From positions 1 to 20,482 of the IMG/VR virus record IMGVR_UViG_3300006802_000775: a stretch of DNA of 20,482 nt; one strand, 5' to 3'. Source of the DNA: a virus. Position 1 is the first letter of the stretch. Every line of letters starts with the position of its first letter. This document shows, piece after piece, positions 6,478 through 20,482 of the stretch. The position numbers were made by a program, and so were the translations under genes. The notes under the pieces are model-generated. The model searched no databases. It was not told the DNA's origin and saw nothing but the letters and a program-made list of their open reading frames with translations.

Positions 6478-7296
6478 ATGGACGAGCAGACCGTTACCAC
6501 AGAACAGGCAAACCCTGTCGAATCGACATTGATGGGTTCTGTAGATGGTGGCGATAATCTTGATTGGAAATCGTCACTGCCCGAAGACATCCGCAATGAA
6601 CCTACGTTACAGAACTTCAAGGACGTTGAAAGCCTTGCCAAGACTGTAATTCACCAACAGAAGGCTATGGGAAGTCGTATTCCCCTGCCGAAAACTGACG
6701 AAGAACTGTCGGAAGTCTACAACAAACTAGGCAGACCTGAATCGGCTGACAAGTATGAATATCAATTAAATGAAGAAGTTAAGCAGTATTTTGATGAAGG
6801 GGCTTTAAGTCGTTTCAAAGAAGTCGCACACGCTAACGGCTTGAACAGCAAACAGGTTCAGGCATTGATTGATTATCAGTCAGGCGAATTGGCAGAGGTT
6901 ATTCAGAACGAACCTTCACAGTTAGCCGCACAGAAAATTGAAACAGAAGACTACCTAAAGAAAGAATGGGGTGCAGAGTATGACCGTAATGTTCGTGCCG
7001 CACAACGTGCTTTGCAGGTGTATGGCGATGATGAAATCATTGATTTGATGAATACATCGGCAGGCAATCACCCTGCGGTAGTTAAATTGTTTGCAAAACT
7101 TGGCAAAGAAATAACGGAAGATATGGCGCAAAACACGGCTAATAACCGTTTGGCTGTATCACCGCTTGACGCTAAGATGGAAATCGAGCAAGTATTCTCT
7201 AATCCAAACCACCCATACTTCAAGGACAACCATCCTGAACATCGGGCGGCGGTAGAACGTATGCGGGAATTGCACGAAAAAGTTTATGGTAATTAA
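6478..7296 (+). CDS. Capsid assembly scaffolding protein
   Basis: A 272-residue acidic, helical protein directly upstream of the capsid gene. The N-terminal third is low in complexity and ends in the conserved block NEPTLQNFKDVESLAKTVIH (about residues 40-59). Then come GSRIPLPKTDEELSEVYNKL and GRPESADKYEY, a motif set I know from phage scaffold proteins (a linker with L-GRP-D-YE). The C-terminal end (KMEIEQVFSNPNHPYFKDN then HRAAVERMRELHEKVYG) is the part expected to bind the coat protein. It would direct procapsid assembly and leave before or during DNA filling. The Shine-Dalgarno GGAAAG lies before the ATG, 3 bp after the preceding gene. Confidence 0.85.
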   Translation: MDEQTVTTEQANPVESTLMGSVDGGDNLDWKSSLPEDIRNEPTLQNFKDVESLAKTVIHQQKAMGSRIPLPKTDEELSEVYNKLGRPESADKYEYQLNEEVKQYFDEGALSRFKEVAHANGLNSKQVQALIDYQSGELAEVIQNEPSQLAAQKIETEDYLKKEWGAEYDRNVRAAQRALQVYGDDEIIDLMNTSAGNHPAVVKLFAKLGKEITEDMAQNTANNRLAVSPLDAKMEIEQVFSNPNHPYFKDNHPEHRAAVERMRELHEKVYGN

Positions 7297-8861: not shown

Positions 8862-9440
8862 ATGGCTACAGACGTATCAATTTGTTCAAACGCCCTACGT
8901 AGGTTGGGTGACAGCCCAATTACGTCTTTAACTGATGACACAGAACGCGCCCGTTTGTGTAATGCTTTTTTTGCAGACGCAAGGGATTCGGTTTTAAGAA
9001 GTCACCCGTGGAATTTTGCAATCACACGGGCAACACTGACGAAACTTACAGCAACACCCGCATACGGATATGACTATCAGTATGCCCTACCTACAAACCC
9101 ATATTGCTTGCGCGTATTGGGAATGGAATACCCTGACTACGAATTCAAAATCGAAAACGATGCGACATTCGGACGGGTGTTACTGACCAATGAAGGCACA
9201 GCCAATATCTTATATATTGCACGGGTCACTAATGCGGTCTTGTTTGACAGTATGTTCGTTGACGTGTTGACAGCAAAGTTGGCTGTTGATTTGGCTTACC
9301 CTGTAACTGGTAGTGTCCAATTACAAGGTCAGATGGAAAAGTTATATCAGCAAAAACTTTCTGAAGCACGTAGTGTAGACGGACAAGAAGGTGTCATTGA
9401 TGACCTTGTATCCGATACATTTACGGACTTTAGAAGATAA
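8862..9440 (+). CDS. Tail adaptor, tail tubular protein A-like (T7 gp11-like)
   Basis: A 192-residue helical adaptor that connects portal and nozzle. The start VSICSNALRRLGDSPITSL (about residues 5-23) and the block RARLCNAFFADARDSVLRSH then PWNFA (about 29-53) are the family signature. They are followed by ATPAYGYDYQYALPTNPYCL (about 63-82), a beta strand region, and a C-terminal helix with LTAKLAVDLAYPVTG (about 135-149). All are typical of phage tail tubular protein A. A TAGGTG Shine-Dalgarno lies near the start, just after the capsid terminator. The stop overlaps the next start (TAATG), so adaptor and nozzle are translationally coupled. Confidence 0.9.
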   Translation: MATDVSICSNALRRLGDSPITSLTDDTERARLCNAFFADARDSVLRSHPWNFAITRATLTKLTATPAYGYDYQYALPTNPYCLRVLGMEYPDYEFKIENDATFGRVLLTNEGTANILYIARVTNAVLFDSMFVDVLTAKLAVDLAYPVTGSVQLQGQMEKLYQQKLSEARSVDGQEGVIDDLVSDTFTDFRR

Positions 9441-11908
9441 TGGCGCGTGTTCATCCTTTCCAAACAAATTTCACCGCAGGTGAACTAACACCAAAACTTG
9501 CAGGTCAGACTGACTTCAAGAAGTATTCTAATGGTGTAGAAATCCTAGAAAACATGACGGTGTTCCCCCAAGGGGGTGCAACGCGGCGTTATGGAACGCG
9601 ATTTGTTGCTGAAGTAAAAGACAGCACAAAGAAATGTCGTCTAATTCCTTTTGAATTTAACGTAGAACAATCCTACGTGTTGGAATTTGGTGACCAGTAT
9701 ATAAGGTTCTACAAGGATGGTGGGCAGATTACAGAAGCCGCCAAGACCATCACAGCAATTACGCAAGCAAATCCTGCAAACGTCACGTCTGTCGGTCATG
9801 GATATACTACGGGTGACGATATTTGGATTTATGCTGTTGTTGGTATGGACGGCATCAATGGCAGGCGTTATCGCATTACTGTTGTGGATGCTGATAACTT
9901 TACTTTAAATGGCATAGATACGACATCTTTTACTGCATATACGTCAGGCGGCACAGCAAACAAAGTTTACGAGATTGCTAGCCCCGTCACTGAAGATATA
10001 CTGTATGAAATCCAATATACGCAGTCTGCGGACGTTATGTATATTGTTCACGAAACCATACCGCCAAAAAAACTATCACGAACAGGACATACATCGTGGA
10101 CGCTAGTAAGCGAAGCATTTGAAAATGGTCCATATCTTGATAAAAACACATCAAGTTTTACGTTTACATCATCTGCAACAGGTGTAGGCACAGGAAGAAC
10201 GCTAACAGCATCAGGTTTGTTTCCTGACGCATTAGGTCTTACAGGTTTTCACCCTGACGATATTGGGCGTTTAGTGCGTATGACCGCAGGTTGGGGCGTG
10301 ATTACAGGCTACAATTCACCTACGCAAGTCGTGTGGGAAATTAAAAAAGCACTGACATCGGCTTCTGCAACAACCGATTGGTCATTAGGTGCATGGTCAG
10401 AACACACAGGTTACCCACGAACCGTATCATTCTTTGAACAAAGGTTAATGTTTGCGGGGTCTACGGCTTATCCACAGACTATTTGGGCATCACAATCAGG
10501 TCTATACACAAACTTTTCCACAGGAACTTCACTAGCGGCAGAAGCCTTTATCTATACGATTGCGGCTAACAGAGTTAACACAATTCGTTGGCTAGCACCT
10601 GCGCGTGACTTAATTGTCGGCACAGCGGGTGGTGAATTCAAAGTGGGCAGACCTACAGGCGAACCGCTAAAGCCTGACAACGTGTCGATTACACAGCAAA
10701 CTACCTACGGTGGTTGGACTACAGAACCAATTCAGATTGGTAACGTGGTTCTATTTGTGCAGAAACAGCGTAAGAAAATCCGTGAATTTGCGTATCAGTT
10801 TGAAGACGATGCGTATGCCGCACCTGATATGTGCCTATTGGCAGAACATATCTTAGGAAACGGCGCGGTAGACGTAGCCTATGCACAAGAACCTGAAAGT
10901 ATTTATTGGGTGGTTCGTGAAGACGGAACACTGTGCGGAATGACCTATCAGCGTCAAGAAGACGTGGTGGCATGGCACAGGCACATTCTAGGCGGCTACA
11001 ACGGCTATTCGTTCAATGCGGCTACTGCGGTAACTGGTTCTGCGTCAGACGCGCTGAACAACGGTTATATCACGATTACGGCGCATGGTTATGCGATAGG
11101 TGACAAAGTAACGTATGACGCAAACGGCAATACCAAGATTGCGGGTCTTGAAGATGGGAAAGACTATTATGTCGTAGTGCGCAGTGCCAATGAAATTGAA
11201 TTGGCAGAAACATACCAACAAGCGTTAGACCGCACGATTGTGCAGATTGGCACTGGCACTGGCACACACTATATTCGTGCCGCCGCAAAATGCAAGTCTG
11301 TTGCGACTATTTCTGAAGACGAAGAAAACCAAGTATGGCTTTGTGTGGAACGCACGATTGGCAATACTAAACGCGCATACATCGAATACCTAAGTAACAC
11401 CGTAAATATGGATTCCTGCCTATCAGGAACGGTTAATGGTTCGTCTACAGATGTGACAGGACTAGACCATTTAGAAGGCGAATCAGTCCAAATCCTAATT
11501 GGTGACGCTGTTTATCCTAACCAAACAGTAACAAACGGAAAAATAACAGTTAACTTACCTGCCAATACAGGGTATAAGAGTATAGAGATAGGACTGAAAT
11601 ACGTCAGTAAGATTAAAACAATGCGAGTAGAAGCAGGGGCGCAAGCAGGAACGGCACAAGCCCGTCCAAAAAGGTATAATGAAGTTACCGTGCGTTTATA
11701 TAAAACGGTCGGTGTAACTATAAACGGTGACCAAATACCGTTTAGGTCTTCATCTACCCCTGTTGGGCAGAACATTGAAGAATTTACAGGCGACAAACGG
11801 GTGACCAACCTAGGATGGGATAGAGATGGTCAGATAATAATAGAACAAACGCAACCATTGCCAATGACAGTCCTAGGTGTCACAGGCACATTGGTTACGA
11901 GTGATTAG
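9440..11908 (+). CDS. Tail nozzle-like protein (tail tubular protein B-like) with two extra beta modules
   Basis: An 822-residue beta-rich protein beginning with the marker NFTAGELTPKLAGQTDFKKY (about residues 10-29). Then come NMTVFPQGGATRRYGTRFVA (about 38-57) and RLIPFEFNVEQSYVLEFGD (about 66-84), shared by nozzle-type proteins of many podoviruses. A first inserted module (about 105-180) has GHGYTTGDDIWIYAV, the pattern annotated in such proteins as a ubiquitin-activating-E1 FCCH-like domain. A second (about 530-620) has a similar AHGYAIGDKVTYDANG start. The propeller part between them includes FFEQRLMFAGSTAYPQTIW and WLAPARDLIVGTAGGEF. It would form the distal tail opening. The middle of the gene holds a (TGGCAC)3 run near 11251-11268. 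The function is inferred from family and position. Confidence 0.85.
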   Translation: MARVHPFQTNFTAGELTPKLAGQTDFKKYSNGVEILENMTVFPQGGATRRYGTRFVAEVKDSTKKCRLIPFEFNVEQSYVLEFGDQYIRFYKDGGQITEAAKTITAITQANPANVTSVGHGYTTGDDIWIYAVVGMDGINGRRYRITVVDADNFTLNGIDTTSFTAYTSGGTANKVYEIASPVTEDILYEIQYTQSADVMYIVHETIPPKKLSRTGHTSWTLVSEAFENGPYLDKNTSSFTFTSSATGVGTGRTLTASGLFPDALGLTGFHPDDIGRLVRMTAGWGVITGYNSPTQVVWEIKKALTSASATTDWSLGAWSEHTGYPRTVSFFEQRLMFAGSTAYPQTIWASQSGLYTNFSTGTSLAAEAFIYTIAANRVNTIRWLAPARDLIVGTAGGEFKVGRPTGEPLKPDNVSITQQTTYGGWTTEPIQIGNVVLFVQKQRKKIREFAYQFEDDAYAAPDMCLLAEHILGNGAVDVAYAQEPESIYWVVREDGTLCGMTYQRQEDVVAWHRHILGGYNGYSFNAATAVTGSASDALNNGYITITAHGYAIGDKVTYDANGNTKIAGLEDGKDYYVVVRSANEIELAETYQQALDRTIVQIGTGTGTHYIRAAAKCKSVATISEDEENQVWLCVERTIGNTKRAYIEYLSNTVNMDSCLSGTVNGSSTDVTGLDHLEGESVQILIGDAVYPNQTVTNGKITVNLPANTGYKSIEIGLKYVSKIKTMRVEAGAQAGTAQARPKRYNEVTVRLYKTVGVTINGDQIPFRSSSTPVGQNIEEFTGDKRVTNLGWDRDGQIIIEQTQPLPMTVLGVTGTLVTSD

Positions 11909-11923
11909 GAAAGGGGGTTCATA

Positions 11924-12367
11924 ATGGCTTGGTGGGTTGTTCCTGCTATGCTTGCTTCAACGGCAGTGACCGTTATGGGCATCTCACAGCAAAAAAAGGC
12001 AATGAAAGCAAATGCGGCTTGGGCAGAATACGAGCGCACACTTAACTTTCATTACGAAAAACAGAAGCGTCTTAAAGATGAAACTGCGCGACTAAGTGAA
12101 AACCGCGCACGTGCAGGTGCGTCAGGAACACAAATGTTCACAGGAAGCAGTCTATTGATTGCCGAAGCAGATGCGCAAGAATTTGAGAACGATATGTGGT
12201 TCTTGGAAAAAGGCGTATTTGTAAAAAATGCGGCGGCAAATGCAGAACTGCAAGGACAGTTAACGGCGGCTAATTATAAGATTGGTCAGACAATACTTAG
12301 CGGTGCGGCACAGGCAGGCGATTACGATGCCCGATTTAACGATGCCAAATTCTTTGGAAGTGCGTAA
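11924..12367 (+). CDS. Internal virion protein, gp14-like
   Basis: A 147-residue protein with a hydrophobic N-terminus (WWVVPAMLASTAVTVMGI, about residues 3-20), then a long helix with QQKKAMKANAAWAEYER and NFHYEKQKRLKDETARLSEN. A small-residue motif ARAGASGTQMFTGSSLLIAE (about 62-81) and a second Ala-rich helix to the end follow. The layout and place right after the nozzle gene are those of the small T7 gp14-type protein, which is ejected first and forms the outer-membrane part of the DNA-entry channel. That role is inferred by analogy. The Shine-Dalgarno is AAAGGGGG. Confidence 0.75.
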   Translation: MAWWVVPAMLASTAVTVMGISQQKKAMKANAAWAEYERTLNFHYEKQKRLKDETARLSENRARAGASGTQMFTGSSLLIAEADAQEFENDMWFLEKGVFVKNAAANAELQGQLTAANYKIGQTILSGAAQAGDYDARFNDAKFFGSA

Positions 12368-12369
12368 TC

Positions 12370-14232
12370 ATGGCTATTAAATTATCAAGATACGCAGGCA
12401 GTCTAGGAAGCGCACCACTACAAAGTGGACGAACTATTACTACGGGCGTTACCGAAGGTGGATTGCAAGACCTTGGTAAAGGAATTATGGATATTGCCAA
12501 AATGTATGGCGAAGCAAGTATCCGTAGGGAAGCCAAACTGCGTGACCTTGACCTAGTTTCTAAAAACGAAAACGGTAAGAACGAAAGCCTGCTTCACAAT
12601 GATAATTTTACTTTTGACATAGAAACGTCAGGTAGAACCGATTGGCAGTCTTGGGAAGATGAATTTAAGACCAGTTATCAAACAAATGTAACTGACAAAA
12701 AACTCAATGGCGATTTCAAAGACGATGAAGTCGCATGGAAAAAACATGAGCCGTTCAATGACCTAGGTTACATTGAAGGGCTACGTGCTATCCGCACATT
12801 GGCAAAAAATCAGCGTCTTAAAAATGCGCAACGTGCGTATGACCAGTCATGGGTAAGCACCCAAGGTAGCATCGACAAAGCAACGTCAGCCGAAGAAGTA
12901 AAAAGTATTTACGACACATGGGCGACAGGCACGTTAGGTAACTACGCTAAGACTGAATTTATTACGGGTGAACGCTATAAGTCTGACAATGAAGGCATGG
13001 CGGCATATGCAAACAATGCCTATATGTTTCATCAGGTCAGCAAAGGTGTTGCACCATTACAAGCACCTAATGGTAGCGGGGCAATAAATTGGGCTGAACT
13101 AGCCAACAAAGCCGCAGACCCTACTTACAAAATGCAGGACATTCAAGGTAATGAACTTACCGTTGATGACCCAATCCGCAAAGGTCTTATTAAACATTAC
13201 CGTGAAAAAGACGGTGAACAAGACACGTTCTTTGAGCGTGAACGTAATGACCGTCAACGCGAATCAAAAGGTTTTTTTACTGACCGAATCATCAGAATGT
13301 CTACAGGTAAGCCTGATGCTGACTTCCTAGGTGATTTGCAAAAAGACCAAAGTCTTGAGCCTGAAACCAAGTTAGCCCTAAGAAATTCTTACTTTACTAC
13401 TGTCGGTAACTTGAAAGACAAAACAAAACCGTGGGAAACACAGCAAGGCATTGCCGCAGAAGGTATGTTGCGTGTTTTGGTTTCTGCGGGTGTGATTGAT
13501 ACGCAAGAAGAAAAAGGCATTATCCGCGATATGTGGCTAAACGGGCAGTTAATCAGTCCTGAAACCGTTTCTACGCTTGATAAACTTGTTGACGAAAAAA
13601 TTGCACAAAGCAATAAGCCTAACCAAGTGCTTTATAAACGCACAGTAGGCACGATTATGAAAGAAATGGGCGAAAAACAAAGCCCAATAGCCGCGTTATC
13701 AAGTCTTGATGCAGGTGCAGGTTCACTTAAAAGCCTGTCTGATGTTCAAAATCTGATTGATTCAATGTCAGGTCAGATGTCTAAAGAAGCATTGTTGGCT
13801 ATTCAAAACCTAGATTACATGATTGCTGAAGGTCAACGTAAAGGGTTTACTGTCCAAAATATGTTGGGCAACCCAAGTAGTCCAAACTATATCGTTAACG
13901 ATGTTATCAAGGTATATAAAGAACTGAAGTCAGAATCAGACTTAACTAAGTTTAATACTTCAGCGCAAAACTATCTCAACGCAAATTGGTATACAGACGG
14001 CAAGTTTGGTATTGATGCGGCGGCTTGGGCGGCAAGTCCATTGCGTTCTGCACCTGTTGTTAAGAATGTTCCATTGCGCAGGGAAGGCGAAACTATAACG
14101 GATTACTTGCCTAGATTAGATAAGTGGATGCAAGAAAACAAAATGTCTAACAATTCAATGCTACCAATGTTTATGTATGGTGACCAACCAAATGTAGGCG
14201 GGGCGGGTATGAACATTATTGGAACTGAATGA
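12370..14232 (+). CDS. Putative internal virion protein in the gp15 position
   Basis: A 620-residue soluble, mostly helical protein that starts two bases after the gp14-like gene. It begins with a small-residue stretch (SRYAGSLGSAPLQSGRTITT, then GGLQDLGKGIMDIAKMYGEA, about residues 6-48) and continues as long charged helices. Visible blocks include LGYIEGLRAIRTLAKNQRL (about 133-151), FFERERNDRQRESKGFF (about 288-304) and a helical C-terminal region with DYLPRLDKWMQ. I do not recognise a catalytic motif. Order and size match T7 gp15, the periplasmic-tunnel protein ejected with gp14 and gp16, so a similar role is likely but not shown by sequence motif. The stop overlaps the start of the next gene. 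Confidence 0.7.
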   Translation: MAIKLSRYAGSLGSAPLQSGRTITTGVTEGGLQDLGKGIMDIAKMYGEASIRREAKLRDLDLVSKNENGKNESLLHNDNFTFDIETSGRTDWQSWEDEFKTSYQTNVTDKKLNGDFKDDEVAWKKHEPFNDLGYIEGLRAIRTLAKNQRLKNAQRAYDQSWVSTQGSIDKATSAEEVKSIYDTWATGTLGNYAKTEFITGERYKSDNEGMAAYANNAYMFHQVSKGVAPLQAPNGSGAINWAELANKAADPTYKMQDIQGNELTVDDPIRKGLIKHYREKDGEQDTFFERERNDRQRESKGFFTDRIIRMSTGKPDADFLGDLQKDQSLEPETKLALRNSYFTTVGNLKDKTKPWETQQGIAAEGMLRVLVSAGVIDTQEEKGIIRDMWLNGQLISPETVSTLDKLVDEKIAQSNKPNQVLYKRTVGTIMKEMGEKQSPIAALSSLDAGAGSLKSLSDVQNLIDSMSGQMSKEALLAIQNLDYMIAEGQRKGFTVQNMLGNPSSPNYIVNDVIKVYKELKSESDLTKFNTSAQNYLNANWYTDGKFGIDAAAWAASPLRSAPVVKNVPLRREGETITDYLPRLDKWMQENKMSNNSMLPMFMYGDQPNVGGAGMNIIGTE

Positions 14233-17200
14233 TGAATAGTTTAACGGTCACACAACTTAGACAGGCAGGGTTTTCTGATGAACACATCATTAACTTTACC
14301 AATTCTAAAAGACCGTTCCTAAAAGGCGCAGGTTTTTCTGACAGCGAAATCAATGACCATTTTGGTATTGCGCAATCGTCATGGGATATGTTTGCCAAGT
14401 CACAGGTAGTCGGTCAAGACCGTAGCCTAATTGTTGATACAGACGGTGACCAACTATCTGTTAAACCAAAAGACGAAAACGCAACACTTGCAGAAGTCGC
14501 GGCGAAACAGGACAACAATCTTGTTACTAAAGACAATCAGGTTGTAAAGCCTGACGGGGTAACACAGCCTGACACTGTTTCGGCTGATGGACAGCCTGTG
14601 GCTGATACACAGGGCAAAGATTTGATGCGCCCTGAAAACGTCAATCAGCCTACGTTTAACACCAACCTAGCGACAAGCATTGCCGAAGCAGAAAAAAACA
14701 AACCACCAGTTTATAAATGGGAAGATTTAACTGACGTTCAAAAAAGACAACTTAAAATGGGCGGTTCGTTTTGGACTGAAGACGCAAGTGGTAAAACGGG
14801 CGGTAGCGGCAAAAGAATCAGCAGTAAGGACGTTTTGTATCCAAACAAGGAATACACACAGCGTGAAGAAGAAGCGCGTGAAGAACGATTTTCTGTTCTA
14901 AATACTTTAGTTAGTAGTGGTCCATCTACTTTACGTCTACTAGACGGCATACAAAAGACCAATGGGTTTACTGACTTTCAGATAGATACCATTAACGAAG
15001 CATTGTCGTTTGTTTCGGCTATTGAGAGTGACAACAAAAACATTCTCAACGAAATGGGCAATAAGGGCGGCGTGTTTCAGATACGTCAAGACGAAATGGT
15101 TTCATTGATAAACCGTTACGTTAACCTGTCTAAACAGTTTGACCCATCATTTGTTAAGCCTGATTGGGTAGACAAAGCACTAGAAGATAAACGTGCTACA
15201 TCGTTGCCATTGGATGCACAACGTGCGCTGATGCTAACTAAGATGTTTACCATTACACAGCCTGCTTATGCAGACGGTAATTATTCCACAACAGGTAATT
15301 TTCAGTTTAGTGAACTAAGCGATACTGAACGAGCAGAACTTCAACAAATTCGCGTTGACGTAGGTGAAAGCGTAAAAGCAGTAGTCGAAGGTGTTGGCGA
15401 CAGAAATGCACTTCTACAACAAATAGAAGCCAAAAAAGCCGAAATTGAACTTGTTACGGCTAATCCTGCTATTACGATTGGCGAAATTCAAAGACAACAG
15501 GTTGAAATACTTAAACTAGACGAAGCACTAGCCCACCTTGAAAAACAATATGCCGCATTGCAACTGCGCTTAGATAAGCAAGCCAAACTAGCCTATGACG
15601 ATACAGATGCGGGGGCAGAAGCAGACTTTAACAATGCACCGCTAGAAGTGCGTCAGTCATTGTTTGAGTTAATTCGTAAGGACAAACGTGTGCCTGACGA
15701 AAACGCTATGTCTTTGCCTATGCGTATTGCCAAGGGTGACCCTGAAGCAATCAAAGAATTCTATTTGAAATACCACAACCCACCAAATCCTGACCAAGAT
15801 ACCCCTGCGCTTACAGAACGTGTAGACAAGTATCTAAGCAAGTGGAACACCGTGGACTACAAATACGAACTGCCGCAAATGGCAACGTGGTCACAAGACG
15901 GTTGGGTGACTGAATTTGCAAAAGACAGTTACGCAGGACGTAAGTTTATTAAGTATTCAGGTGGTGCAGGCGAACAGAACGTATTCGGCAACGGCATGAA
16001 TTTGTCGGTGTCAGGTCTAATGTCAGCCTATCACTATGAAGTCGGCGTAAACGGTAAAGACCCACGCAAGGCGTATGAAGAAATTTTCATGCACCAAAGT
16101 CAAGACGGAATGTTGGGCTTTTCGCAGGATGTTGCTAAGTCAATGTCGCAAATCCTAGGTGATACGCCGTGGATGGGTGTAGGTTGTGCCGCCGCTGTAG
16201 CACCCCCTGCGGTTGGTATGTTAACCCCTGCCGCACCCGCTGTTGCCCCAACATTGCCGTTCTTCTGTGCCGCAGGTGCATTTGCGTTGCCTGAATCAAT
16301 GCGTGATACCTACATTCGCGGCATTATGAATGGCGAAGTAAACAACTTTGACGAATTTCAAAAAGAATTTATGTCGGCACGAACTGCCGAAGTCGCAGGT
16401 AAATACGGCGTAGTCGGCGCAGTAACTATGGGCGCAGGTAAAGGTGTTCAGGCAATGGGTGGTGGCAGATTGCTACAACTTAGTGCAGAAGTGCCAACAA
16501 TGGTTACCTTGTCCGCAGTGCTAGAAGGACACGTTCCTACTAGACAAGACTTTGCCCATGCCGCTGTCTTGATGTTTGGTATTCATGGCGCAGTAAAAGG
16601 CACAAATGCACTGTATCAAATCTACAAGCGACATGGCGTTCACCCACGTGATGTAGTAACGCTAGCAGAAGCACGTGAAGATATTGCCGCAGATTTGGCT
16701 GAAGGTAGAGTGCCACGTTACTTCACTGAAGTAGGCGAAGCATTGCTTAATGCCGCAGAAGAAACTACAGGCACAAAACTAATACCGCCGCCAAAGGTTG
16801 AAGTAAACCAAACCGTTAAGACTAGCGTTGCAGGAACAGAAACAGGCAAGGTTGTCGGGCGTGAACAGGTAGATGGCGCAGAAGCCATTATCAGCATTGA
16901 AAAGCCAAATGGCGAAGTCATTAAGGTTGGCGAATCAAAAGTAGAGCCGTCAAACTCTGAACACATCACTGTTGAAATTACGCCTGAAGGTCAGGTTCGG
17001 TTTGGCGAAGTTAAAGAAACTAACTTTGAAGCCCGTAAAGCGGCAGGCGAATTTGATGCAGACGTTATTCTGCTTGACGAAATTGTAGTTAAAGCCCCCA
17101 AAGTCGATGTTGCTGTTGATACTGTGGTTAAGAAACAGGAACAGGCAGTCAAATGGGAATCAGACGATGCAGTCGGAACAGTAGACGTTTGGGTCAAGAA

Positions 17201-20200
17201 AGAAGTTTACCCTGAACTAACAGCCGAATTTAAGAACAAAGACGTAGGCAGGGTATCTTACGAAGGCAAAGAAGCGTCTGCAAAAATTAAGTCTGACATA
17301 ATTGGTAGGGTTGAAGAAACCACCAAAGTAGACGTTGTTTACGGTATTGAAAAAGGCGGTCCAAGTGGAATGACCGAAGCATCTACTGTGGTTCGTGCCG
17401 CAGATGGATATTACGTTGTTCCACGTGAAATGTTTGAAGCACTGCGTAAATACACTGACCCTTTGACCAAAGAGGTAAAAGACGCAGATGTTGGCTTTAG
17501 CGAAGGTAATATTGTCTTTATTGCTAAAGATAGCGTAACTGGCAAAACGTCACTGATTGGCAGTCTTCACGCTAAAAAGGCTGAAGGCAAGGTAGAAGCA
17601 CAGGCATCGTCTTACTACACAACCCACATGGACAGCACAGGAAAAACGTGGTCTAGGGAAAATTCTACTAAAGGCGGTAGTCAGCGTAAGATACCTGATG
17701 AACCTAATCAGCCACCACCATTTAACGGCGAACTGAATTGGAAGGGTCTGTTTGAATACGGACGTGGCTTAGACACGTTTGACCTTGTAGAACTTACCCG
17801 CGCATTGATTGACCATACCCCGTTCCTAGAAAACCTGAAGGAAGGCTATTACGGCTATTTCCAATACGGTGGAATTAAGGGTGGTAAAGTCAGACAGTTT
17901 ACTAAGGAAGAACTGAAGGTAGTGGTAAACCGCGCCCTACAGGAAAATCCAAAGCAATTCATTATGACCTTGGCGCATGAGATTGGTCACTTGATTGACT
18001 ATCTGCCACAGGAAACAATGAACAAAGGTAACATCCTTGGTTCACTAGCCGCTATCAAAGACTACCTAAACAAATGGATTGATGGACGTGCAGACGGCGC
18101 GAAACCATTAACCAAGGTAGAAATTGAAGCCTTGCGCAAAGAAGCAGAAGCAGAAGCACTAGCCAAAGAACCTGTGATAGATGCAGAAATCACAGGTGAA
18201 CTAGCGATTACGCCTAAGAAAATCCTAGATATTTGGAAAGACCCTGACATCAGAAGCAAGATTGACCCTGAATTCTATTCGGTCATCCAAGGTCTTAGCA
18301 ATGCGCTGAAGAAGCAGGTAACACGTAGTGCGATGAAGGGCATGATTGACCCGCACATCAAAGCAATCGTGGACAAAATCAATGGCAAGAAAAACATTGA
18401 CCCTGATGTTCTCAAAAAAGCAGAGGACATTCTTGCGGCGAAGGTTGAGAAAGAAATTAAAGAACGTGGTCTTGTTTCTAGGGAAGAAATAATGGCTGAA
18501 TTGAAGGCTTTGACGCAAGAGTGGAAGCCATTCGATGATGCCGCCAACCCTAACTTTACTGCGTATCGTTACAGCCCACGTGAATTGATGGCTGACTTTA
18601 TGATGGCGTTTATGCTACGTCCACAGTGGACTAAAGTTAATGCGCCAAAAGCGTTTGAAGTGTTGATGAACCACTTCCACAAACGCCCTGAAGTCATGCA
18701 GGAATTCCTAAAGATACAAAACGCATTGAACGCAGGCGGCGACAAAATGTTTGCGCCTATTCATACCGCAACAATGGAAATGATGCGGTCAGGTTCAGAG
18801 CGTGTTGGCAAGAAAATGATTGAGGATGCCGAAACAGGACCATCTGTTCGTGATGCGGTAGAAACTGAATTCATTGACATATTTGGTTGGTTCTACAGAC
18901 GCTTTGGTGGACCGAATGGATTTTTTGGTTCTGACAGGGCGGCACGTTGGTTCAATGAAGCCACAATGTATTTTGGCGGCATGATTGAGAAATTCCGCTA
19001 TCGCCATGCTTATATGCAGTCATACCAAAAGGCGATGATGCGCGAAGTGTTTGAACCGCTAAACAAGTCAGGCAAAAGCCATGACGTATTAGGCACGATG
19101 CTACTGTATCGAAACCTAGCGTTTAGTATTCAGCGTGGCGGCAAAGCAAACCCATTAGGTTTGTGGTCACAAATGAAAGAAGCCGTTCAGAAAGATGCTG
19201 AAGGCAACCCTGAACTTGTCAGGATTGTTACCGAAATCGAAGGTGGACGTGACGCAAAGTCTATTTACGAAAACTTTGCCAAACTACACCCTGACGTTGA
19301 TGCGCTAGCCACAAAGTTTTTTGAAATCCGCGCTGAATATATGCACCCTGTCTTAAAAGACAGCATGATGTTTGATGCCGAAACATTACAAAAGATGTTG
19401 GACAACAACGAATACATCACGTTTAGCGTCAGCAAATGGGTAGAAAAGAAGATTGGTAAATATGGCAACAAGGCGTTTATGTCTGCACACATTAAGCGGA
19501 CTGAAGGCACATTGGCAGACATTCTGAACCCACTACACACTACGTTAGAAAAAGACTTCATGCTGTTAACGGCATTGAAGAAAAACCGCCTAATTATTGA
19601 AGCCGTCAAATGGATGCAAGACAACAAGTCTTGGATGGAAACATTTGATATGAACACAAAACTTGGTGGTTCAAAGAAAGATGTGGTGATTGAAAAAGCC
19701 AAGTCGATTGGTAAGGGCGTTTATGAGCCACCGCCAAAAGGTATGCACCAAATTATGTTGATGCGTAACGGCAAGGTAGAAATGTGGAACATGAATAAGT
19801 TTGCCGCTGATGCGTTCTTAGATAACCCTTATCGTTGGATTATGGGAACAAGCATATTAGCGTCTACTAATGCTTGGTATCGCGGCATATTTACTGAATA
19901 TAACCCATTGTTTTGGGGTAAGAATATGTTCAAGGATACAGGACGTGCGGTTCGTAACCTTGAAAACGCCCGTTACTTTGACATTTTGAAGGGCGGTAAA
20001 AACAGTTACGTTAAGTATCTAATCAAATCTATTCGTCCAACATGGAAATCTATCTTTGGCGATGGCACAAACCTAACCAACTTGATGGAAAAGGAAGGCT
20101 ATTTGATTTCGGCAATGGAAGGATACCGTGGTCAAGCAGGTGAACTAGCCATTAGACGTATGGTTAAAGACGGCACATTGACAGCAGATAATGTGATTGT

Positions 20201-20482
20201 CGAAAAACTGTTGCAGAAATTAGACCCCAAAAAGTATGAAACTTTCTACAGCAATACGATGGGTAGGATGTTGGAATACGTTGGGAACATTGCGCGTGTT
20301 TTAGAGCGTATGCACAAAGTCGCAGGTAAGATGTATTTAGATGACGCTGTTAAACGCGGCGAACTAAAGATGTCCGATATGGAAATCTTACAGCGTGTTC
20401 AGGCTGACGTTGGTTCACCATCATTCCTACGCACAGCGCGTATGCACCCTATTATGAACAACGTATTCCTTTTCTCAAACGC
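14229..20482 (+). CDS. Giant polyvalent ejection protein: transglycosylase, metallopeptidase and LPD38-like regions (partial, C-terminus outside window)
   Basis: I translated this frame to the window edge without a stop: at least 2084 residues. The start is ATGATG at 14229/14232, overlapping the previous stop. Residues about 230-310 form a lytic-transglycosylase-like domain: catalytic E266 in FVSAIESDN and, 18 residues on, Q284 in GGVFQI. A helical region follows. An Ala/Pro-rich hydrophobic stretch lies at about 649-688, then LPESMRDTYIRGIMNGE. Repetitive beta-type sequence spans about 850-1060. A zinc metallopeptidase motif AHEIGHLIDYLP (H1250, E1251, H1254) has the likely third ligand E1452 in RELMADF. 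The last 220 residues (PLFWGKNMFKDTGRAV, then GSPSFL and NVFLFSN) resemble LPD38 of large polyvalent phage proteins. The place matches T7 gp16, which enters the host and opens peptidoglycan. Confidence 0.88.
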   Translation, partial: MMNSLTVTQLRQAGFSDEHIINFTNSKRPFLKGAGFSDSEINDHFGIAQSSWDMFAKSQVVGQDRSLIVDTDGDQLSVKPKDENATLAEVAAKQDNNLVTKDNQVVKPDGVTQPDTVSADGQPVADTQGKDLMRPENVNQPTFNTNLATSIAEAEKNKPPVYKWEDLTDVQKRQLKMGGSFWTEDASGKTGGSGKRISSKDVLYPNKEYTQREEEAREERFSVLNTLVSSGPSTLRLLDGIQKTNGFTDFQIDTINEALSFVSAIESDNKNILNEMGNKGGVFQIRQDEMVSLINRYVNLSKQFDPSFVKPDWVDKALEDKRATSLPLDAQRALMLTKMFTITQPAYADGNYSTTGNFQFSELSDTERAELQQIRVDVGESVKAVVEGVGDRNALLQQIEAKKAEIELVTANPAITIGEIQRQQVEILKLDEALAHLEKQYAALQLRLDKQAKLAYDDTDAGAEADFNNAPLEVRQSLFELIRKDKRVPDENAMSLPMRIAKGDPEAIKEFYLKYHNPPNPDQDTPALTERVDKYLSKWNTVDYKYELPQMATWSQDGWVTEFAKDSYAGRKFIKYSGGAGEQNVFGNGMNLSVSGLMSAYHYEVGVNGKDPRKAYEEIFMHQSQDGMLGFSQDVAKSMSQILGDTPWMGVGCAAAVAPPAVGMLTPAAPAVAPTLPFFCAAGAFALPESMRDTYIRGIMNGEVNNFDEFQKEFMSARTAEVAGKYGVVGAVTMGAGKGVQAMGGGRLLQLSAEVPTMVTLSAVLEGHVPTRQDFAHAAVLMFGIHGAVKGTNALYQIYKRHGVHPRDVVTLAEAREDIAADLAEGRVPRYFTEVGEALLNAAEETTGTKLIPPPKVEVNQTVKTSVAGTETGKVVGREQVDGAEAIISIEKPNGEVIKVGESKVEPSNSEHITVEITPEGQVRFGEVKETNFEARKAAGEFDADVILLDEIVVKAPKVDVAVDTVVKKQEQAVKWESDDAVGTVDVWVKKEVYPELTAEFKNKDVGRVSYEGKEASAKIKSDIIGRVEETTKVDVVYGIEKGGPSGMTEASTVVRAADGYYVVPREMFEALRKYTDPLTKEVKDADVGFSEGNIVFIAKDSVTGKTSLIGSLHAKKAEGKVEAQASSYYTTHMDSTGKTWSRENSTKGGSQRKIPDEPNQPPPFNGELNWKGLFEYGRGLDTFDLVELTRALIDHTPFLENLKEGYYGYFQYGGIKGGKVRQFTKEELKVVVNRALQENPKQFIMTLAHEIGHLIDYLPQETMNKGNILGSLAAIKDYLNKWIDGRADGAKPLTKVEIEALRKEAEAEALAKEPVIDAEITGELAITPKKILDIWKDPDIRSKIDPEFYSVIQGLSNALKKQVTRSAMKGMIDPHIKAIVDKINGKKNIDPDVLKKAEDILAAKVEKEIKERGLVSREEIMAELKALTQEWKPFDDAANPNFTAYRYSPRELMADFMMAFMLRPQWTKVNAPKAFEVLMNHFHKRPEVMQEFLKIQNALNAGGDKMFAPIHTATMEMMRSGSERVGKKMIEDAETGPSVRDAVETEFIDIFGWFYRRFGGPNGFFGSDRAARWFNEATMYFGGMIEKFRYRHAYMQSYQKAMMREVFEPLNKSGKSHDVLGTMLLYRNLAFSIQRGGKANPLGLWSQMKEAVQKDAEGNPELVRIVTEIEGGRDAKSIYENFAKLHPDVDALATKFFEIRAEYMHPVLKDSMMFDAETLQKMLDNNEYITFSVSKWVEKKIGKYGNKAFMSAHIKRTEGTLADILNPLHTTLEKDFMLLTALKKNRLIIEAVKWMQDNKSWMETFDMNTKLGGSKKDVVIEKAKSIGKGVYEPPPKGMHQIMLMRNGKVEMWNMNKFAADAFLDNPYRWIMGTSILASTNAWYRGIFTEYNPLFWGKNMFKDTGRAVRNLENARYFDILKGGKNSYVKYLIKSIRPTWKSIFGDGTNLTNLMEKEGYLISAMEGYRGQAGELAIRRMVKDGTLTADNVIVEKLLQKLDPKKYETFYSNTMGRMLEYVGNIARVLERMHKVAGKMYLDDAVKRGELKMSDMEILQRVQADVGSPSFLRTARMHPIMNNVFLFSN

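Follow-up and report, generated by a model that had tools for sequence, protein, structure and literature searches.

A predicted zincin and a predicted lytic domain in a giant, probable ejection protein from the gp16 slot of a Baldr-related podovirus

Introduction

In bacteriophage T7, gp16 belongs to the gene set gp14-15-16; its N-terminal transglycosylase is located in the periplasm, while its C-terminal part passes through the inner membrane to the cytoplasm (PMC8954989). The equivalent of gp16 in N4-type phages is the giant vRNAP (PMC10925440), in which a zincin-motif domain, C1, is followed by a large helical domain, C2, that has no known structural relatives (PMC12633501). Since 2017, zincins have been predicted in giant phage proteins that are injected (PMC5512222), and one of them is visible in the N4 polymerase structure (PMC12633501). 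Zincins joined to lysozyme domains in ejected proteins of giant size are a described theme of polyvalent proteins (Iyer et al. 2017, PMC5512222). We describe a giant open reading frame (ORF) in a 20,482-base virus record, IMGVR_UViG_3300006802_000775 (hereafter the window), which encodes a podovirus structural module on its + strand. The product of this ORF, hereafter the giant, is a predicted ejection protein that would combine a lysozyme/lytic-transglycosylase-like domain with a zincin-like metallopeptidase domain. Unless another record is named, all coordinates are those of the + strand of the window.

Like T7 gp16, the giant is the last product of a gp14-15-16-type set, with a transglycosylase-like domain in its N-terminal part, a hydrophobic region and a long C-terminal part. 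It differs in being almost twice as long, in the position of its lytic domain (residues 222-345 versus 1-156) and in the insertion of a zincin, and T7 gp16 was not reached from it by sequence search. The original prediction, made from the window alone, had contrasted it with T7 gp16 as a protein having only the lytic part and channel helices; this contrast is correct, though zincin and lysozyme domains had already been described together in giant ejected proteins (PMC5512222). With the N4/Schitoviridae vRNAP, the giant shares the status of a giant gp16-slot ejection protein, the order of a zincin (C1) and a large helical domain (C2), and operon partners, which are of about 16 kDa and 66 kDa in that system (PMC12633501, PMC10925440). 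It differs by the lack of a Pfam polymerase match, with a transglycosylase-like domain in the polymerase's stead. Homology of the zincin/C-terminal region to N4 vRNAP was considered and rejected at the level of sequence profiles (hhalign probability 0.4-0.6%).

Results

The ORF (14229..20480) contains 2084 codons without a stop, its 3′ end being cut by the end of the contig. The protein had been described as longer than 2080 residues, which is confirmed for a single ORF; it is moreover incomplete, since intact environmental relatives measure about 2246-2500 aa, and by this comparison about 250 residues would be absent from the window. Searches of the whole protein against Pfam and PHROG returned zero matches. 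Among isolates, only Pelagibacter phage EXVC032P Baldr (genome OQ414636) was found to encode the protein in full; its homologue (WDQ27601.1) of 2330 aa shares 34% identity with the giant, lies in the same gene order and retains HELGHLID and the downstream Glu; it differs in being annotated only as a hypothetical protein. In one environmental contig (locus L012, on the same contig as L049, L148 and L213), a single in-frame stop at 12049-12051 lies immediately 5′ of the peptidase and separates pieces of 1020 and 1236 aa. We rejected this split as a two-protein form, given that no start codon precedes the peptidase; a sequence error or a dead allele is likelier.

The zincin-like domain spans residues 1170-1500 (17736..18728) and was delimited from conservation, an AlphaFold2 model and weak family matches. 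Its HEIGHLID motif (17976..17999; HEIGH being residues 1250-1254) provides H1250, E1251, H1254 and D1257, while the RELMADF motif starting at residue 1451 places E1452 (18582..18584; RELMADFMMAFMLRP) as the candidate third zinc ligand. These five residues are identical in 14/14 aligned relatives, and they are among the 17 invariant columns out of 331 in an alignment of 39 peptidase domains with identity down to 28%. This set had been gathered with the seeds HE[LI]GHLID and ELMADFM, which biases its conservation. Scans were therefore repeated with seeds on the C-terminal and middle domains, independent of the catalytic motifs, and yielded 58 unique zincin sequences: HExxH and the Asp were present in all 57 readable ones, and the Glu corresponding to E1452 in all 55 that reach that far. 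Conservation of the zincin site is therefore not an ascertainment artefact, and the loss of these residues in most relatives, which would have contradicted the original prediction, was not found.

AlphaFold2, run on the 39-sequence alignment, modelled the domain with a predicted local distance difference test score (pLDDT) of 78.5 and a predicted template modelling score (pTM) of 0.62. Its secondary structure is zincin-like, with an N-terminal helix, strands, a helix bearing HExxH (model positions 72-89) and, after a long helical insert, a second helix bearing the downstream Glu (281-294). Variable inserts at the same place are described for the zincins of polyvalent proteins (PMC5512222). A search of the model against BFVD gave, beyond a direct homologue, weak matches including SprT-like, IrrE-like and zincin proteins and a putative hydrolase. 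Consistently, Pfam scans performed member by member on the 39 domains weakly matched SprT-like in 20/39 and Peptidase_M78 in 13/39 (best E 3e-4). The predicted metallopeptidase identity claimed for HExxH and E1452 is thereby well supported at the level of sequence, with good evidence from motif and conservation, moderate evidence from the fold, and family matches that are weak but consistent.

Several of these traits are those of polyvalent proteins. The giant is a multidomain late protein with at least two unrelated enzymatic domains, lysozyme-like and zincin, in one polypeptide of the structural cluster; its HExxH motif has a downstream Glu and, three residues past the motif, the invariant D1257; and its zincin is joined with lysozyme-like and LPD-type domains, and in distant relatives with ART-PolyVal and other domains listed for this class. 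One difference concerns a His that the polyvalent zincin variant conserves where strand 2 ends: no invariant His lies upstream of H1250 in the 39-domain alignment. This His is described for one common clade of phage-type zincins, not for the whole class (PMC5512222). As a second difference, the close relatives of the giant remain below the Pfam cut-off for LPD38.

The zincin is strictly paired with the domain that follows it. This helical C-terminal domain (18846..20480; residues 1540-2084, truncated with the contig) directly follows the zincin in 95/95 peptidase ORFs with at least 200 residues downstream, a count that includes some loci from the same contig. In the most distant relatives, the same pair is preceded by an unrelated N-terminal part. 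A constant zincin/C-terminal pair behind changing cargo is, as judged from these sequences, the polyvalent-protein pattern. As the zincin is tied to its position and the cargo varies, processing of the polypeptide or of the entry complex would be a better fit than cleavage of a single host protein. Of the two roles raised in the original prediction, self-processing during entry and the cutting of a host protein, the pairing would favour the former or another kind of phage-side processing.

The N-terminal cargo is diverse. ART-PolyVal precedes the pair in L091, and a 3774-aa protein (L094, 150-11471) carries ART-PolyVal, radical SAM and RadC ahead of it. In cellular genomes, just two distant relatives were found, both on contigs of metagenome-assembled genomes (MAGs) and both of polyvalent-type architecture. 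A Planctomycetes MAG contig (L129, 3-11336) encodes a 3778-aa polyvalent protein with an SNF2/ResIII helicase, the zincin, its C-terminal partner and a weak Eco57I-type methylase match. In an Acidobacteria MAG contig (L128, 2-5218), a near-threshold match to WLM, a zincin family, lies upstream of the HEIGHLID domain, so that this polypeptide possibly contains two zincins.

The second predicted enzyme, a lysozyme/lytic-transglycosylase-like domain, occupies residues 222-345 (14892..15263) and was recognized from a conserved ES-N...G-FQ motif and an AlphaFold2 model. The candidate catalytic Glu, E266 (15024..15026), belongs to an ES motif (SAIES, from residue 263) followed by the G-FQ motif in a helical domain. 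E266 is identical in the 11/11 aligned relatives that cover it; across the family it is kept in most relatives, replaced by V in one distant clade, and the motif is disrupted in others. The model is all-helical (pLDDT 80, pTM 0.78). A profile search against the PDB gave lysozyme 6ukc (E 0.019) and the phage transglycosylase 3bkh (E 0.8), and Pfam returned no family match for the domain. The predicted lytic domain is well supported by motif and conservation and moderately by fold, the model being suggestive. The transglycosylase-like domain proposed earlier thus stands on its motif and on conservation in most relatives, while E266 is not universal.

The core of the protein includes a short N-terminal segment and a middle domain. 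The N-terminal segment (residues 5-60; 14241..14408) was delimited by profile matches and is common to short forms of the family and to gp17 of phage HTVC010P. The middle domain (residues 540-830; 15846..16718), also common to the short forms, contains a hydrophobic Ala/Pro/Gly stretch that a hydropathy scan places at residues 647-688 (16167..16292); it corresponds to the Ala/Pro segment announced in the original prediction and is a candidate membrane-crossing part. A variable linker (residues 850-1150; 16776..17678) connects it to the peptidase. The relatives share one arrangement, which runs from the N-terminal segment through the lytic domain, the hydrophobic middle domain, the variable linker and the zincin to the C-terminal helical domain. 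The LPD38-like end also attributed to this protein did not hold for the window, lying outside it: Pfam gave no LPD38 match on the giant, and close relatives reach only 13-16 bits (best 15.9) against a gathering cut-off of 27 for LPD38 (PF18857), in a match whose start falls about 50 residues outside the window.

Short forms (1200-1280 aa; MW202898 and L230-L235 among them) consist of the N-terminal segment and the middle domain and end in LPD38 (58-149 bits, E 3e-43 to 2e-15); the N-terminal segment is weak or absent in some of them and the C-terminal domain is recognizable in most. Single-sequence patterns detected no relatives of MW202898 in viral contigs; the middle-domain alignment subsequently brought them to light. 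In a comparison of the long-family C-terminal domain with MW202898, 550 columns aligned into the LPD38 region (probability 91%). Because the short forms are free of both enzymes, the core corresponds to an ordinary ejection protein of gp16 size, and the lytic domain and the zincin look like separate modules, gained by the core or lost from it. In HTVC010P (L125, 13027-16346), two products are annotated as hypothetical, of which gp17 matches the N-terminal and middle parts and gp20 the C-terminal part (hhalign probability 94% for gp20); the core appears to be split over these two genes. No profile match to the motif region revealed a separate peptidase gene in the HTVC010P, HTVC035P and MW202742 loci.

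The gene order assigns the giant to the gp16 slot. It is preceded on the + strand by genes for terminase, portal, a capsid-assembly/protease-like product, the major capsid protein and tail tubes A and B, and then by a 147-aa and a 620-aa gene, an order matching the T7 set gp14-15-16 (PMC8954989). The slot is the one expected of T7-type gp16: genes of gp14 and gp15 type come first and a tail fibre comes next, the fibre being the gene that follows the giant's homologue in Baldr. In HTVC010P-type relatives, the same slot holds genes annotated as internal virion proteins. Gene order and these homologues support the earlier designation as an ejection protein, and the giant is best read as the predicted ejection protein in the gp16 slot of a Baldr-related podovirus.

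Among the neighbours, tail tubular protein A (8862..9440) matches PHROG 394 (E 5e-54), and tail tubular protein B, the nozzle (9440..11908), matches PHROG 376 (E 2e-192) and is 65% identical to that of Pelagibacter phage Baldr. The 147-aa product (11924..12367) is a gp14-like internal virion protein by a weak match to PHROG 418 (E 0.0016) and an N-terminal hydrophobic stretch. The 620-aa gene (12370..14232), with nothing below E 0.009 in PHROG, is placed by position and size in the slot of gp15, the periplasmic tunnel, and its stop overlaps the start of the giant. The capsid-assembly position is occupied by a gene (6478-7296) with a match to PHROG 458, 'protease' (E 8e-21); its product would be a second possible virion protease within the same module. 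Some relatives have an additional gene, annotated as acetyltransferase, that separates tail tube B from the gp14-like gene (L126, 10254-10709; L003, 2056-2487); the window has no room for it there.

Discussion

From the observed sequence, conservation, domain order and gene order, we infer a virion location, a topology, a catalytic function and a substrate for the giant. It would be a gp16-type ejection protein of polyvalent character, with polyvalent proteins and N4 vRNAP as its nearest precedents. The N-terminal segment, the hydrophobic middle and the helical C-terminal domain with its LPD38-like end would form the core of an entry machine, on which two enzymes are mounted, the lytic domain ahead of the hydrophobic part and the zincin immediately ahead of the C-terminal domain. 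By analogy with T7, the giant would be packaged and then ejected; the lytic domain would thin the peptidoglycan in the periplasm, and the hydrophobic part would cross the inner membrane, allowing the zincin and the C-terminal domain to reach the cytoplasm. There the zincin would most likely cut the ejected phage protein itself or an ejectosome partner and so release or remodel the C-terminal part. We give self-processing or ejectosome processing at entry an even chance. Several points weigh against it. The presence of the giant in the virion is itself deduced; no cleavage site was identified in the protein; and the short forms, with neither lytic domain nor zincin, work without a peptidase. 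N4 vRNAP, with its zincin in an equivalent place, is packaged uncut (PMC5512222), so that cutting is not required before entry and maybe never occurs. The fold searches against the PDB also count here: the lytic model retrieved goose-type lysozymes and a phage transglycosylase at best, all at E of at least 1.8 and none significant, and the 331-residue zincin model retrieved nothing at E<0.5, long-helix proteins dominating its list, probably owing to the long helical insert.

If the C-terminal domain were only a delivery partner, the zincin could instead be an injected effector cutting a specific host protein involved in defence, envelope or transcription. Distant relatives unite the zincin with ART-PolyVal, radical SAM/RadC or an SNF2 helicase in one polypeptide, combinations that belong to the polyvalent-protein theme of host conflict (PMC5512222), and the upstream position of the hydrophobic segment implies that the zincin would end in the cytoplasm. 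Its fixed position beside the C-terminal domain argues against such a role, as do residues that are near-constant across very different phages and presumably hosts, when host-specific effectors usually vary or get exchanged. We regard an effector as rather unlikely.

Processing might also take place during assembly, the zincin trimming the giant or its neighbours in the procapsid for fit or for ejection readiness. P1 DdrB and DarA are reported to be cut before or during head maturation (PMC5512222, PMC12810830), and a protein about 1.7-1.9 times as large as T7 gp16 could call for such trimming; a separate protease-like gene already occupies the capsid-assembly position, however, and the nearest counterpart, N4 vRNAP, enters the virion intact, which makes this timing improbable. 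We likewise consider it quite improbable that the HExxH domain is a zinc-stabilized structural part for packaging or ejection, or performs other HExxH chemistry, and is no working peptidase. The N4 vRNAP region containing the zincin is described as needed for encapsidation, the corresponding portion of the structural account reports no protease activity (PMC12633501), and the missing PDB match would suit this role; but E1251, the catalytic Glu, is as invariant as the zinc ligands, and a purely structural site need not retain it. The more specific form of processing at entry, in which a dedicated, position-fixed zincin in the gp16-type ejection protein of a widespread marine phage family cuts the ejectosome, for example to detach a C-terminal hub in the cytoplasm from the lytic part in the periplasm, is possible, though we consider it doubtful.

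The polyvalent-protein account, in its available portion, yielded no description of pelagiphage-like podoviruses in which a fixed ejection-protein scaffold carries two inserted enzymes (PMC5512222). The gp16-slot context of the family in these phages, its short forms without enzymes and its strict pairing of zincin and C-terminal domain were not found described and are apparently new.

Relatives of the giant include phages of SAR11. These bacteria are among the most abundant in the ocean. Natural relatives without the zincin, namely the short forms and the split form of HTVC010P, allow a direct comparison, and together with cultured Baldr, whose protein is 34% identical to the giant, on its cultured SAR11 host they make the question of the substrate testable. 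To our knowledge, a protease step in phage genome entry has been demonstrated in no podovirus; an ejectosome-cutting zincin, if true, would constitute such a step.

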